Below, piece after piece: positions 36,788 through 39,887 of a DNA stretch of 64,000 nt (its first letter is position 1; each line of letters starts with the position of its first letter). Below the pieces are notes generated by a model, which worked only from the letters and a program-made list of their open reading frames with translations, was not told the DNA's origin and searched no databases. The stretch is from Actinokineospora xionganensis (GTDB lineage Bacteria > Actinomycetota > Actinomycetes > Mycobacteriales > Pseudonocardiaceae). The DNA is taken from assembly GCF_014323725.1 (NCBI RefSeq), contig NZ_JABVED010000013.1, forward strand, positions 124,288 through 188,287, given 5' to 3'. The translations under genes and the position numbers were made by a program.

Positions 36788-36915
36788 GGGCTCGCAGGTG
36801 ATCGGCGACAGTGGTCAGGTTTCAGGTCACGCTCAGGTAACAGGGTACTGCCCAACCTGCCGCGGTGCCTTCGCGGGTGGAACCAACGGTGGCAGACAGA
36901 CTACCGTCGGCGACC

Positions 36916-37593
36916 GTGGACCTCGTCGACGACTACACCGGCCATGTCGAGCCCGGTGGCCCCGCTGCCCGCCGCACCCTGAACGCGCTGACGATCACCA
37001 AGGTGTCCGTCGGCCCGTTCGATAACAACGCGTACCTGCTGACCTGCCGCGCCACCCATGAGGCGCTGCTGATCGACGCCGCAGCCGACCCGACACGCCT
37101 GTCGGACGTCATCGGCTACGACAAGGACCGACCCAGCCTGAAGACCATCGTCACCACGCACCAGCACGGTGACCACTGGCAGGCGCTGGGCGCGGTCGCC
37201 GGAGCCAACGGCGCCAACACGATCGCCCACGAACTGGACGCGGGCCCACTACCGGTCCCCCCGGACCGGTTCGTGACCCAGGGCGACACGGTGGCGGTGG
37301 GGCAGGTGGAGCTGGAAGTGATCCACCTGCGCGGCCACACCCCGGGCTCCATCGCGCTGCTCTACCGTGACCCGGACGGCCACCCGCACCTGTTCACGGG
37401 CGACTCTCTGTTCCCGGGCGGTCCTGGACGGACAACAGATCCCAAGGACTTCACCAGCCTCATGAACGACCTGGAGTCCCGTGTCTTCGGCGAACTGCCG
37501 GATGACACGTGGTTCTACCCCGGCCACGGCGACGACTCGACCTTGGGCGACGAACGCCCGAAGCTGGACGAGTGGCGAGAGCGCGGCTGGTAG
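36916..37593 (+). CDS. Metallo-beta-lactamase-fold hydrolase (glyoxalase II-like)
   Basis: 225 residues from GTG 36916 (GTG 36889 and 36865 are in frame too). Zinc ligands are visible in order: TTHQHGDH (about 84-91), LRGHTPGS (about 141), FTGDSLFPGG (about 163), and YPGHGDDST (about 203). Length and order fit hydroxyacylglutathione hydrolase-like enzymes, which in mycothiol users may split thiol esters. Two truncated copies of its 3' third lie further downstream (38461 and 39684), each separated from it by a toxin-antitoxin unit. Confidence 0.88.
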   Translation: MDLVDDYTGHVEPGGPAARRTLNALTITKVSVGPFDNNAYLLTCRATHEALLIDAAADPTRLSDVIGYDKDRPSLKTIVTTHQHGDHWQALGAVAGANGANTIAHELDAGPLPVPPDRFVTQGDTVAVGQVELEVIHLRGHTPGSIALLYRDPDGHPHLFTGDSLFPGGPGRTTDPKDFTSLMNDLESRVFGELPDDTWFYPGHGDDSTLGDERPKLDEWRERGW

Positions 37594-37630
37594 GCAGTAC
37601 GGCCAGCACACCCAAGGCTGCTGAGCACGA

Positions 37631-37672
37631 GTGCTGCGGTATGGCCGCCTGGTGGCAGCCATACCGCAGCAC
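37631..37672. promoter_or_regulatory. 14-base inverted repeat upstream of the antitoxin gene
   Basis: GTGCTGCGGTATGG (37631-37644) is exactly complementary to 37659-37672 across a 14-base loop. It lies 37 bases after the hydrolase stop and 40 bases before the antitoxin ATG. It could be the hydrolase terminator or the operator through which Phd-type antitoxins repress their operon. Confidence 0.6.
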
Positions 37673-37712
37673 CACGTAGCACAGCGTGCCACCGCCCGGT
37701 AGGGTAAAGGTC

Positions 37713-37982
37713 ATGACAGCGCAGCCCGAGGTCACACAACGAGACCTCCGCAACAGGTCGAAAGAGATCATGGACGCCGTCGAGAGTGGGCGGTCGTTCA
37801 CCGTCACCCGTGACGGCCATGAGATCGGTGAATTGATCCCGCTGCGCCGGCGTCGACGTTTCGTCGCACGAGCCGAGTTCGTCGCCACGTCACGCAACGC
37901 GGCGCAGGTCGACATCGACGCGTTCCGCGCCGATCAAGAAGCCGCGCTCGACCAGGAGCCGCGAAACCCTTATGAGCAGTGA
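37713..37982 (+). CDS. Phd/YefM-family antitoxin
   Basis: 89 residues, ATG 37713 behind AAAGG. The N-terminal VTQRDLRNRSKEIMDAVESGRSF and VTRDGHEIGELIPL make the Phd/YefM DNA-binding fold; the Arg-rich middle leads to an acidic, disordered tail that would bind and block the toxin. It overlaps the VapC gene by 11 bases, typical of type II pairs. Regulation is probably by conditional cooperativity at the nearby palindrome. Confidence 0.9.
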   Translation: MTAQPEVTQRDLRNRSKEIMDAVESGRSFTVTRDGHEIGELIPLRRRRRFVARAEFVATSRNAAQVDIDAFRADQEAALDQEPRNPYEQ

Positions 37983-38436
37983 CTCTCACGCGCAAGGTCT
38001 GCTCGACACCAACATCTTGATCTTGCGTCGCTGGATCGACCCTGCCGAACTGCCGGATGAGATGGCCATCAGCGCGATCACGCTGGCCGAACTCTCGGCA
38101 GGGCCACACGAAGTCCGCCGGAACGAGGAGCAGGGCGCCTATGACGAGCACGTGGAACGTGCCCGTCGGCTCGATGTCCTGCAGCGTGCCGAGAGCGAAT
38201 TCGACCCTGTCCCCTTCGACGTCGAAGCAGCCAGGATCTACGGACGAGTCTCTGCGGCGGTGATTGCCGGAGGACGTAAACCGCGGCGCAGGATGGTCGA
38301 CCTCATGATCGCCGCTACTGCGATCGCCGAGGATCTTCCCTTGTTCACCACCAATCCAGATGACTTCAAAGGGCTTCAGGACCTGCTGACTGTCGTGCCG
38401 GTCACCCGCCCACGAGTGCCTCACGAAGTGCCGTGA
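37972..38436 (+). CDS. vapC: VapC-family PIN-domain toxin
   Basis: 154 residues. The PIN ribonuclease acidic residues are present: Asp12 (LLDTNIL), Glu40 (LAELS), Asp110 (MVDLMIAATA) and the TTNPDDF segment near 126-132. Such toxins cut specific tRNAs or rRNA when released from the antitoxin. All catalytic residues are intact, so the pair looks functional. A truncated hydrolase copy begins 25 bases after its stop. Confidence 0.92.
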   Translation: MSSDSHAQGLLDTNILILRRWIDPAELPDEMAISAITLAELSAGPHEVRRNEEQGAYDEHVERARRLDVLQRAESEFDPVPFDVEAARIYGRVSAAVIAGGRKPRRRMVDLMIAATAIAEDLPLFTTNPDDFKGLQDLLTVVPVTRPRVPHEVP

Positions 38437-38460
38437 TCCGGTGTCGTCCAGCCTGCCCCG

Positions 38461-38658
38461 TTCACCGCTGAATTGCTGTTCCCCGGCGGTCCTGGACGGA
38501 CAACAGACCCGACAGAGTTCACCAGCCTGATGGACGACTCGGGGTCCCGCGTGTTCGGCGAGCTACCGGACGACACGTGGTTCTACCCGGGCCACGGCGA
38601 TGACTCCACCTTGAGCACGGAACGCCCCAAGCTGAGCGAGTGGCGCGAGCGCGGCTGG
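38461..38658 (+). pseudogene. Truncated copy of the hydrolase 3' end (copy 2)
   Basis: It reads PFTAELLFPGGPGRTTDP ... LPDDTWFYPGHGDDST ... SEWRERGW and matches hydrolase residues from LFTGDS to the last codon. Bases 38476-38506 differ from the intact gene by one in 31 at the left; identity then falls. It lacks the HxHxDH site and a start, and the stop is lost (the frame runs on into the next gene). It lies between the VapC gene and the Fic module. Confidence 0.85.
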
Positions 38659-38796
38659 CGAGTCGAGGGAGGCTCCCCACCAAGGCCGATTTGGACGACT
38701 CCAGCGGACTTGGGAGCCTGGCATGCCCCAGTCCGCTGGCGGTATCATGACATGAGGAGAGGTCGAGTCTTCGCCGTTCGATGGGAGATGCTGGTC

Positions 38797-38952
38797 GTGA
38801 CGGATCGCATGGTGAGCAAGGCGGCCGTAAAGCGGTTCGCCATCCGCTCGACAGCGGCTTCAGCGCACCTCGAACGCCGTACAATTCCCGCTGGATATGT
38901 CCGCTCAGAGCGCGTCAAGCAGTTCTTGGCGAAGCGCAGTCAGCGAGCGTGA
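38797..38952 (+). CDS. Small basic protein before fic, probable antitoxin
   Basis: 51 residues from GTG 38797 (ATG 38788 possible), GGGAG upstream. RSTAASAHLERRTIPAGYVRSERVKQF is its core. The segment SAHLE fits the SxxxE part of the inhibitory helix seen in Fic antitoxins, but the usual following Gly/Asn is Arg, so this is tentative. The stop overlaps the fic start (GTGA), as expected for an antitoxin-toxin pair. Confidence 0.55.
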   Translation: MTDRMVSKAAVKRFAIRSTAASAHLERRTIPAGYVRSERVKQFLAKRSQRA

Positions 38953-39579
38953 CATCATTCCCGCCAGGTTACGGCGAGACGCCCCTTTCTGCGGACGAAG
39001 CCGAGTCACTGCTCCCAGACGTACTAGAAGCACTCGGCTCACCTGCGAGCAAGACCGCCATATACGACCTTGAGCAAGAAGTGCAGCAAGAAGTCGCCGA
39101 AACCTTGCTGACCGAGGTGCTCAATGGCAATCGTTCTCTCGGCGAACTACTGACTGACCATTTCCTACGCGACCTACATCGTCAACTTTACGGAGATATC
39201 TGGAGTTGGGCGGGGCATCTATCGCAAGCGTGAACTGAACATCGGCGTGACCCCTGAACAGATCGCGGTCGAACTACGCAGCTCCCTGGACAACCTCCGC
39301 TATCGCTGGGACTTCACCAACGACTGGACGCCACGGGAATTCGGAATCGCAATCCACGCGGAGACAGTGAGAATTCTCCCGTTTACGGACGGAAACGGGC
39401 GCACAACCCGCCTGTTTGCCGATCTCATATTCGTTGCAACACAGGCCAACGAGAAGCTCAATCAGTACGACTGGAACCTCGACAAGGCCCAGTACATCAC
39501 TCTGTTGCGTGAGTATGACTCTCATCGCGACCCTCGCGAACTAGCGGCATTCATTCCGGTATATCCGCTCGACGATTAG
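38949..39579 (+). pseudogene. Fic/DOC-type AMP-transferase gene, frameshifted and missing its catalytic His
   Basis: The first part (38949-39233) encodes LLTDHFLRDLHRQLYGDIWSWAG and then runs out of frame; the second (39247-39579) resumes with PEQIAVELRSSL and the Fic core. Removing one base near the G run 39212-39215 joins them as WAG-IYRKRELNIGV. The Fic motif is LPFTDGNGR (39376-39402) where HPFxDGNGR is expected: CTC for CAC at 39376-39378 replaces the catalytic His by Leu. The rest of the motif, including the Arg, is intact. Two independent lesions suggest a dead toxin; the frameshift alone could be a sequence error. Confidence 0.8.
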
Positions 39580-39683
39580 CCATTCGCATGGGCGGGACTT
39601 TCCCCGATCCATACGATAAGCGTCTAGATCCTTTCTTGCTCGCGGCCGTTGGCCGTAAGTGGCAGCGCTGAATCAGCCGGGGT

Positions 39684-39887
39684 ATGTTCACCGCCAACGC
39701 TGACTTCCCCGGCGGGGTCGGCAAGACGACCAAGCCAGAGGACTGCACGTCCTTGATTGACGACGTGTCGTCCCGCATTCTCGACGTCCTCCCCGATGAC
39801 ACCTGGTTCTACCCAGGCCACGGCGACGACTCGACGCTGGGAGAGCAGCGTCCCCGCCTCGGCGAATGGCGCGAACGCGGCTGGTGA
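39684..39887 (+). pseudogene. Truncated copy of the hydrolase 3' end (copy 3)
   Basis: It reads MFTANADFPGGVGKTTKPEDCTS ... LPDDTWFYPGHGDDST ... GEWRERGW and ends in a stop. It again starts at the LFT(G/A) codon of the hydrolase and stops at the same last Trp. It is more diverged than copy 2, though the DDTWFYPGHGDDST core is unchanged. A 68-residue frame is open but lacks three of the four zinc ligand groups, so a working enzyme is excluded. Confidence 0.8.

Follow-up and report, generated by a model that had tools for sequence, protein, structure and literature searches.

The 3' end of a metallo-hydrolase gene as a probable attachment site of large serine recombinases, with serial cassette insertion, in Actinokineospora xionganensis and other Pseudonocardiaceae

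Why should the 3' end of a single metallo-hydrolase gene occur three times in succession, with the copies closing units of toxin–antitoxin (TA) type? This question is raised by a 64,000-nucleotide stretch of Actinokineospora xionganensis DNA (contig NZ_JABVED010000013.1, positions 124,288 to 188,287), here called the window, in which an intact gene of the metallo-beta-lactamase (MBL) fold lies on the forward strand at 36865..37593 (open reading frame, ORF, from 36865 or a later start; PF00753, E 8e-14). The first-pass annotation of this DNA had noted the threefold 3' end and proposed serial additions at a fixed site, each restoring the gene and leaving its old end behind. The repetition itself is confirmed by a direct repeat (D1) of 214 nt in register, at 37377-37590, 38445-38658 (82%) and 39671-39884 (68%), and by the Phd/PIN and Fic domains encoded between the copies. 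When the 67-residue hydrolase tail was compared with its own genome by tblastn, the three copies in the window were recovered (E 1e-43, 1e-34 and 1e-29), and the best match after them was a 421-residue open frame (E 7e-15). No match to the hydrolase 5' sequence was obtained ahead of copies 2 and 3, where the alignments begin at residues 177 and 176. Judging from the sequence comparisons described below, we consider it very probable that the hydrolase 3' region is a fixed attachment site of large serine recombinases (LSRs) with serial insertion, the recombination activity being predicted.

The imprint of an exchange is seen when the window gene is compared with its counterpart in the nearest relative, G014. 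Identity is 94% (514/545) to the left of the putative crossover and 75% (136/182) to the right of it (p = 6e-12, for the chosen centre only, the break being located in 45-base bins at or near the core). G014 has one tail only, and its downstream flanks are non-collinear with those of the window over ~2 kb. To this single tail copy 3 is the most similar (151/182), followed by the window gene’s own tail (136/182) and copy 2 (131/182). Since the break falls at the crossover and copy 3 is nearest to the G014 end, copy 3 appears to be the displaced original end, while the present end of the gene, its last 182 bases, was probably imported and the 5' part is chromosomal. These data agree with the serial additions proposed at first; copy 3, described then as the more diverged fragment, is indeed so in the repeat, but it is not merely diverged, as it resembles a chromosomal 3' end.

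The copies do share a common start, as had been observed, although we interpret it as a recombination half-site in preference to the LFT codon suggested earlier, with crossover points placed at 37411/37412, 38479/38480 and 39705/39706 (all features on the forward strand). In the gene, a chromosomal left half-site (B-left, 37391..37411, TTCAC at half-site position 19) is followed by a putatively imported right half-site (P-right, TCCCGGGCGGTCCTGGACGGACAACA, 37412..37437), the two together forming an attL-type site. Mycobacteriophage Kratio has the same P-right arm, as does the gene in 8/8 integrase-bearing arrays. Tail fragment 2 (38459..38658) has a P-like left arm, with TTCAC at 19, and a P-type right arm; its first bases, whose near identity to the gene had been noticed before, can now be explained as this attP-type right arm (TCCTGGRCGGACAACA), which is conserved also in a mycobacteriophage. 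Tail fragment 3 (39684..39887) is attR-type, with a B-type right arm. Read by halves, the gene is B-left/P-right, copy 2 P-like-left/P-right and copy 3 P-like-left/B-right, which suggests at least two additions.

The recombinase that may act at this site was sought in other genomes and in phages. Among 33 phage records matching the tail, 12 are Mycobacterium phages. In Kratio, which we take to be a member of subcluster K5, the match starts at tail residue 6, 12 bp from the annotated serine integrase (S-Int); tail and LSR are likewise 12 bp apart in two further phage contigs, and one end of a metagenome viral contig (L160) is occupied by a hydrolase piece with a P-type tail, 9.4 kb from which there is a fragment adjoining an LSR. 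Searching with the Kratio enzyme (tblastn) revealed LSRs in G042, G203, G287, G294, G307 and G310 and a truncated one in G356, each adjoining a fragment, the tail neighbouring the G307 enzyme being degenerate. A profile built from six sequences and run over 386 family genomes, with at most four candidates per genome scored, detected at least seven complete in-clade enzymes, 7/7 of them beside a fragment; five of these seven had helped to build the profile, while G287 and G292 had not. The next-best LSR scored 300 bits vs at least 698 bits for the in-clade enzymes. The G042 enzyme has the resolvase (PF00239, 1e-23), recombinase (PF07508, 2e-13) and zinc-ribbon (PF13408, 1e-4, below cut-off) domains. 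The location of in-clade LSRs beside fragments, together with the Kratio tail 12 bp from its integrase, indicates that the hydrolase 3' end is a recombination site. The first-pass annotation had seen no recombinase in the window units, and none was found there among the ORFs scanned; the LSR is met at the hydrolase site in the other genomes and phages. The GTG start of the Kratio integrase overlaps the TTCAC of its attP arm (L048, 5984-5988).

The geometry of the half-sites points in the same direction. When T|T in the Phe codon is taken as the centre, TTCAC stands at half-site position 19 in 49/57 sites called intact (7 others have GTGGACCGG and 1 is mis-anchored) and at position 24 in 37/70 fragments, Kratio among them, the same left arm and spacing recurring across genera. 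Had the left boundary varied freely, a fixed site would be excluded, as was remarked in the first-pass annotation; the recurrence of one arm and spacing does not show such variation. According to PMC3783163, the zinc-domain motif occupies positions 16-24 in attP and lies 5 bp further inward in attB. The motif of the fragment arm is 5 bp further out than that of the chromosomal site, which matches this published attP/attB difference. With no more than one mismatch allowed, the ~0.74 Mb of DNA retrieved contains the arm TGTTCACCGCTnnnGYGATnC 37 times, followed by a tail in 35 cases and by what resembles a decayed tail in the other two, a count that bears on position and not on frequency, as the loci were selected for fragments or gene. 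When 68 fragments, falling into 31 groups whose upstream sequences are unrelated, are compared, information content is mostly 0.3-0.9 bits in the motif and falls to background (at most 0.28 bits at all positions) past position 26. On the right side two arm types are found. One, the P-type, has GGTCCTGGRCGGACAACA and encodes PGRTT; the other, the B-type, mostly encodes VGKT. The 17 P-type tails compared share 90% identity over bases 11-27 (64% in B-type) and 71-75% over bases 28-182. P-type gene tails occur in 8/8 arrays with an LSR vs 3/30 without (G000, G150, G171; p = 3e-6).

A search for the left-arm pattern in viral contigs found none, and in genome contigs it gave 24 stretches, 19 of them in genera which we take to be Pseudonocardiaceae (the placement of Kibdelosporangium, Lentzea and Solihabitans was looked up). 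The five unrelated stretches (a Lachnospiraceae metagenome-assembled genome, Bosea, Hydrogenophilales, Peregrinibacteria and Sphingopyxis) were taken as chance. In several fragments (e.g., L038, L051, L053, L061, L073), a GTAGC...GCTAC inverted repeat directly precedes the left arm and may be either a terminator or an element of the site.

To what extent is the site used within the family? The hydrolase tail is present in 385/390 genomes (E <= 1e-18), and 53 have at least two matches at this threshold, the second match being in some of them a full-length paralogue elsewhere. Tail fragments are carried by at least 38/390 genomes: 37 with a fragment on the gene’s contig, and G292, where it lies on another contig beside an LSR. 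This number is a lower bound, counted apart from the matches in G343, G374 and G242, and the fragments of G159, G276 and G286 showed only via their cassettes. The genome G279 has six fragments, and several fragments contain stops. In seven genomes (G042, G203, G277, G287, G294, G307, G310), the nearest fragment found by re-search with the tail is 23-31 kb away from the hydrolase; G277, G287 and G307 have, in addition, a decayed tail at a shorter distance. The hydrolases of G007 (L042), G013 (L044) and G001 (L043) have a P-type or P-like tail and no second tail at E <= 1e-18, for which re-tailing followed by loss of the element is possible.

We suggest that the hydrolase gene serves as the chromosomal attB of one LSR clade, the crossover falling in the LFPGG motif at its Phe codon, 5' to the codon for the PGHG histidine, presumably a metal ligand. 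Immediately next to the integrase gene, each LSR element would have its own version of the final ~182 coding bases, which would become fused in frame to the chromosomal 5' part when the element integrates. The previous 3' end would then lie at the opposite end of the element, preceded by the half-site from the integrase side. The integrase-less cassettes, the two in the window among them, would either be placed by an LSR acting in trans or represent internally deleted LSR elements. The repeats would be scars of serial integration, and the cargo a TA/defence array. A further-reaching version of this scheme, tentative and in our opinion rather doubtful, is an “integron-like” LSR-driven array system in Pseudonocardiaceae, in which integrase-less TA/defence cassettes consist of cargo, one attP half-site and a hydrolase 3' end. 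LSRs supplied in trans by visiting phages and mobilizable elements would insert them, and gene conversion of the tail would reset attB, letting the array grow.

The distribution of the cassettes was analysed over 61 inter-fragment units (elements spanning two loci being left out), of which 32 are shorter than 1.5 kb. Only one unit, in G356, includes an LSR of the clade, in truncated form, and a separate resolvase-domain ORF is also found in G356. Compact units recur across genera in varying order and orientation; those common as a whole to different genera are VapBC, DUF4143-AAA, Beta and Uma2. The VapBC unit of the window matches units in G042, G277, G049 and G120 and, inverted, in G285 and G287. 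A ~790-bp PIN/Phd unit is found in G034, G172, G277, G278, G279, G283, G293, G294, G301, G306 and G311, and a DUF4143-AAA unit in G049, G287, G288, G047 and G146. In 17/17 chosen pairs, cassette identity exceeds that of the hydrolase 5' part: the 14 between-genus pairs have cassettes 80-91% identical in DNA vs 72-78% for the host gene, and the weakest of the 17, the within-genus pair G034/G283, has 87.0 vs 86.3. Over the 386 genomes, the window VapBC unit has a match in 43. Among its long matches at >=73%, 15/17 (own included) have a hydrolase or fragment within 1.5 kb. Of the more distant matches, 13 loci were retrieved (L121-L133), and none has either within 1.5 kb; in G251 the match is 3 kb from the hydrolase. 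The two exceptions, L110 (G282:C4, 81% identity) and L120 (G353, 73%), have the unit away from any hydrolase tail.

A number of observations weigh against serial insertion at the proposed LSR site. In the left arms of copies 2 and 3, TTCAC stands at 19 and not at 24, so that one would have to suppose either that 5 bp were lost twice independently or that a further type of arm exists. The motif is also at 19 in G047, G150 and G425, so that five of the 33/70 fragments not conforming to position 24 are of this kind; in six it lies elsewhere, and 22/70 fragments have no TTCAC. The own genome contains no LSR of the Kratio-like clade, its one other LSR (PF07508) being at G000:C21:15016. Cassette 2, with its Fic domain, was not found at a hydrolase site elsewhere in the 386 genomes searched; its sole other DNA match, in G004 (71%), is without a hydrolase within 1.5 kb. 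The 17 cassette pairs were hand-picked from the better matches, and other common units are 73-76% alike, not above the host gene. Finally, 11/29 integrase-less arrays have at least one fragment with a tail 91-99% identical to that of their own gene, the remaining 18/29 giving 67-87%, five LSR arrays 69-79% and G356 72-82% (the mis-anchored G307 gene entry and one mis-anchored G310 fragment being left out). The 91-99% tails are unlike those of LSR arrays, and therefore either the tails were homogenised later or those cassettes brought no foreign tail. For this reason the earlier statement that each small cargo brings its own tail is not established. These tails may result from gene conversion (by which a B-type attB would be re-created as well), from insertion of DNA from near relatives, or from homologous recombination.

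The last of these processes offers an explanation of its own, which we regard as unlikely: circular or linear DNA with a tail and cargo would recombine with the resident tail, and the LSR would have made only the first junctions. The 67-99% similarity of tails within an array would allow this, including the 91-99% fragments in the 11 integrase-less arrays, and the clade LSR is present in only 8/38 fragment-bearing genomes, truncated in one (G356). However, the shared upstream sequence stops at exactly one LSR half-site in the 31 unrelated groups, and the break between the window gene and its G014 counterpart lies at the core or close to it. It is quite possible, with a likelihood only somewhat short of even, that the integrase-less units are not independent cassettes and are LSR elements decayed by internal deletion. 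The stops in several fragments and the seemingly broken Fic gene of the window are in line with such decay, as are six arrays (G042, G203, G287, G294, G307, G310) in which an LSR element adjoins the gene and shorter units lie further out. The recurrence of compact units across genera in differing order and orientation, with identity above the host gene in the chosen pairs, argues for independent cassettes. Segmental duplication, or decay of hydrolase paralogues with their own 5' parts, a possibility raised already in the first-pass annotation, seems scarcely credible. Clear upstream hydrolase sequence accompanies fragments only in G425 and G307, with weak upstream extensions in a few others (tblastn), while the single left boundary across genera, attP-type arms, LSR adjacency and phage copies speak against it; it is already contradicted by the half-site geometry and the G014 break.

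Integrons are arrays of small cassettes, including TA modules. The hydrolase arrays share with them the small TA-bearing cassettes, but their boundary is an LSR half-site with a coding fragment; as for IntI/attC, one resolvase domain (G356) was noted among the families listed for 104 unit proteins, and no search aimed at integrons was made. The nearest known kind, by analogy, would be the staphylococcal and Enterococcus cassette chromosomes (SCC/ECC) at rlmH, which likewise depend on LSRs, have their attB in the 3' part of a conserved gene, carry variable cargo and leave remnants at the site (PMC6222049). They differ in having att repeats of ~50 bp (PMC6222049), compared with ~182 coding bases replaced at the hydrolase. 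They are also defined by rlmH and CcrAB/CcrC, presumably another recombinase clade, whereas here the site is an MBL hydrolase, the LSR clade is defined by Kratio-like enzymes, the units form fragment-bounded strings and phages use the site too. LSR prophages such as Bxb1 in groEL1 and those at attB-7, -9 and -17 of M. abscessus likewise have an attB within the reading frame of a protein gene, but they disrupt the target gene (PMC8092301), while the hydrolase 3' end would be restored. Islands and prophages in tRNA genes do bring and restore the 3' end of the gene (PMC8092301, PMC9262239); they use tyrosine integrases, while the hydrolase is a protein gene with a longer replaced segment.

Mycobacteriophages of subcluster K5 (Kratio, Larva, AlleyCat, Edugator, InvictusManeo) carry the same hydrolase 3' end, adjoining the serine integrase in Kratio, and are complete phages, unlike the window cassettes. 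A 43-residue K5 protein related to hydrolase C termini has been described without reference to an att site (PMC5679794), and the serine integrase has been reported as restricted to seven K5 members (PMC9202399), both as given in the available parts of these papers. In the literature searched, no paper names the hydrolase gene as an attachment site, and the site is unmentioned in the available parts of PMC10654092, PMC8092301, PMC9262239, PMC11797047 and PMC10083194; the attB maps in the figures and supplements of PMC9262239 and PMC10654092, which were outside the search, may hold a mapped K5 site. The attB sites of Int-S phages need experimental determination (PMC9262239). The present analysis names a candidate site for a recombinase clade common to mycobacteriophages and actinomycete islands, and it may explain the stray hydrolase C-terminus reported in K5 phages. 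It also supplies putative attP/attB pairs for new integration vectors, and the locus would be one through which genera exchange TA and defence modules. The hydrolase itself would have been “re-tailed” repeatedly, with horizontal exchange of the C-terminal quarter of the protein.

Cassette 1 of the window (37594..38460) encodes a Phd-like antitoxin (37686-37982) and a PIN-domain VapC-like toxin (37972-38436) and is without an integrase. The PIN domain (PF01850, E 5.5e-13) adjoins the antitoxin (PF02604, Phd_YefM, E 5e-6, below the curated cut-off), and this arrangement allows us to class the unit as a VapBC TA system. Cassette 2 (38662..39682) includes a small ORF (38812-38952), the frame of which continues from copy 2, and a Fic-domain gene apparently in two frames (38781-39233, 39247-39579). 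The Fic module announced between copies 2 and 3 is present as regards its domain, yet the gene looks broken: the Fic-domain piece at 39247-39579 is in a different frame from ORF 38781-39233, which has no Pfam match and was taken by eye for the first part of the gene. With this split (38781-39579), cassette 2 is possibly inactive. A tRNA gene as integration site was rejected, there being 0 tRNA in the window.

The matches listed for the 104 unit proteins (the first 25 of 63 families) include DUF4143 (11), Phd_YefM (10), PIN (9), Uma2 (3) and Beta protein (2); DUF4143-AAA has the PADLOC label PDC-S01, a candidate class. Wadjet genes are found in units of the hydrolase arrays, JetA2 in G282 (L087) and JetA3 in G287 (L078), and other cargo comprises type I restriction (G424), AbiEii (G287), RHS (G284) and mycothiol-S-transferase. 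The 27-kb G042 element between the hydrolase and the first fragment (L039-L040) has a relaxase (PF03432, 4e-8), MobC (PF05713, 2e-7) and the LSR; by this combination of relaxase and integrase, it can be assigned to the integrative mobilizable elements. This island further carries type I restriction-modification and a LanC-type gene with a PCMT-type methyltransferase.

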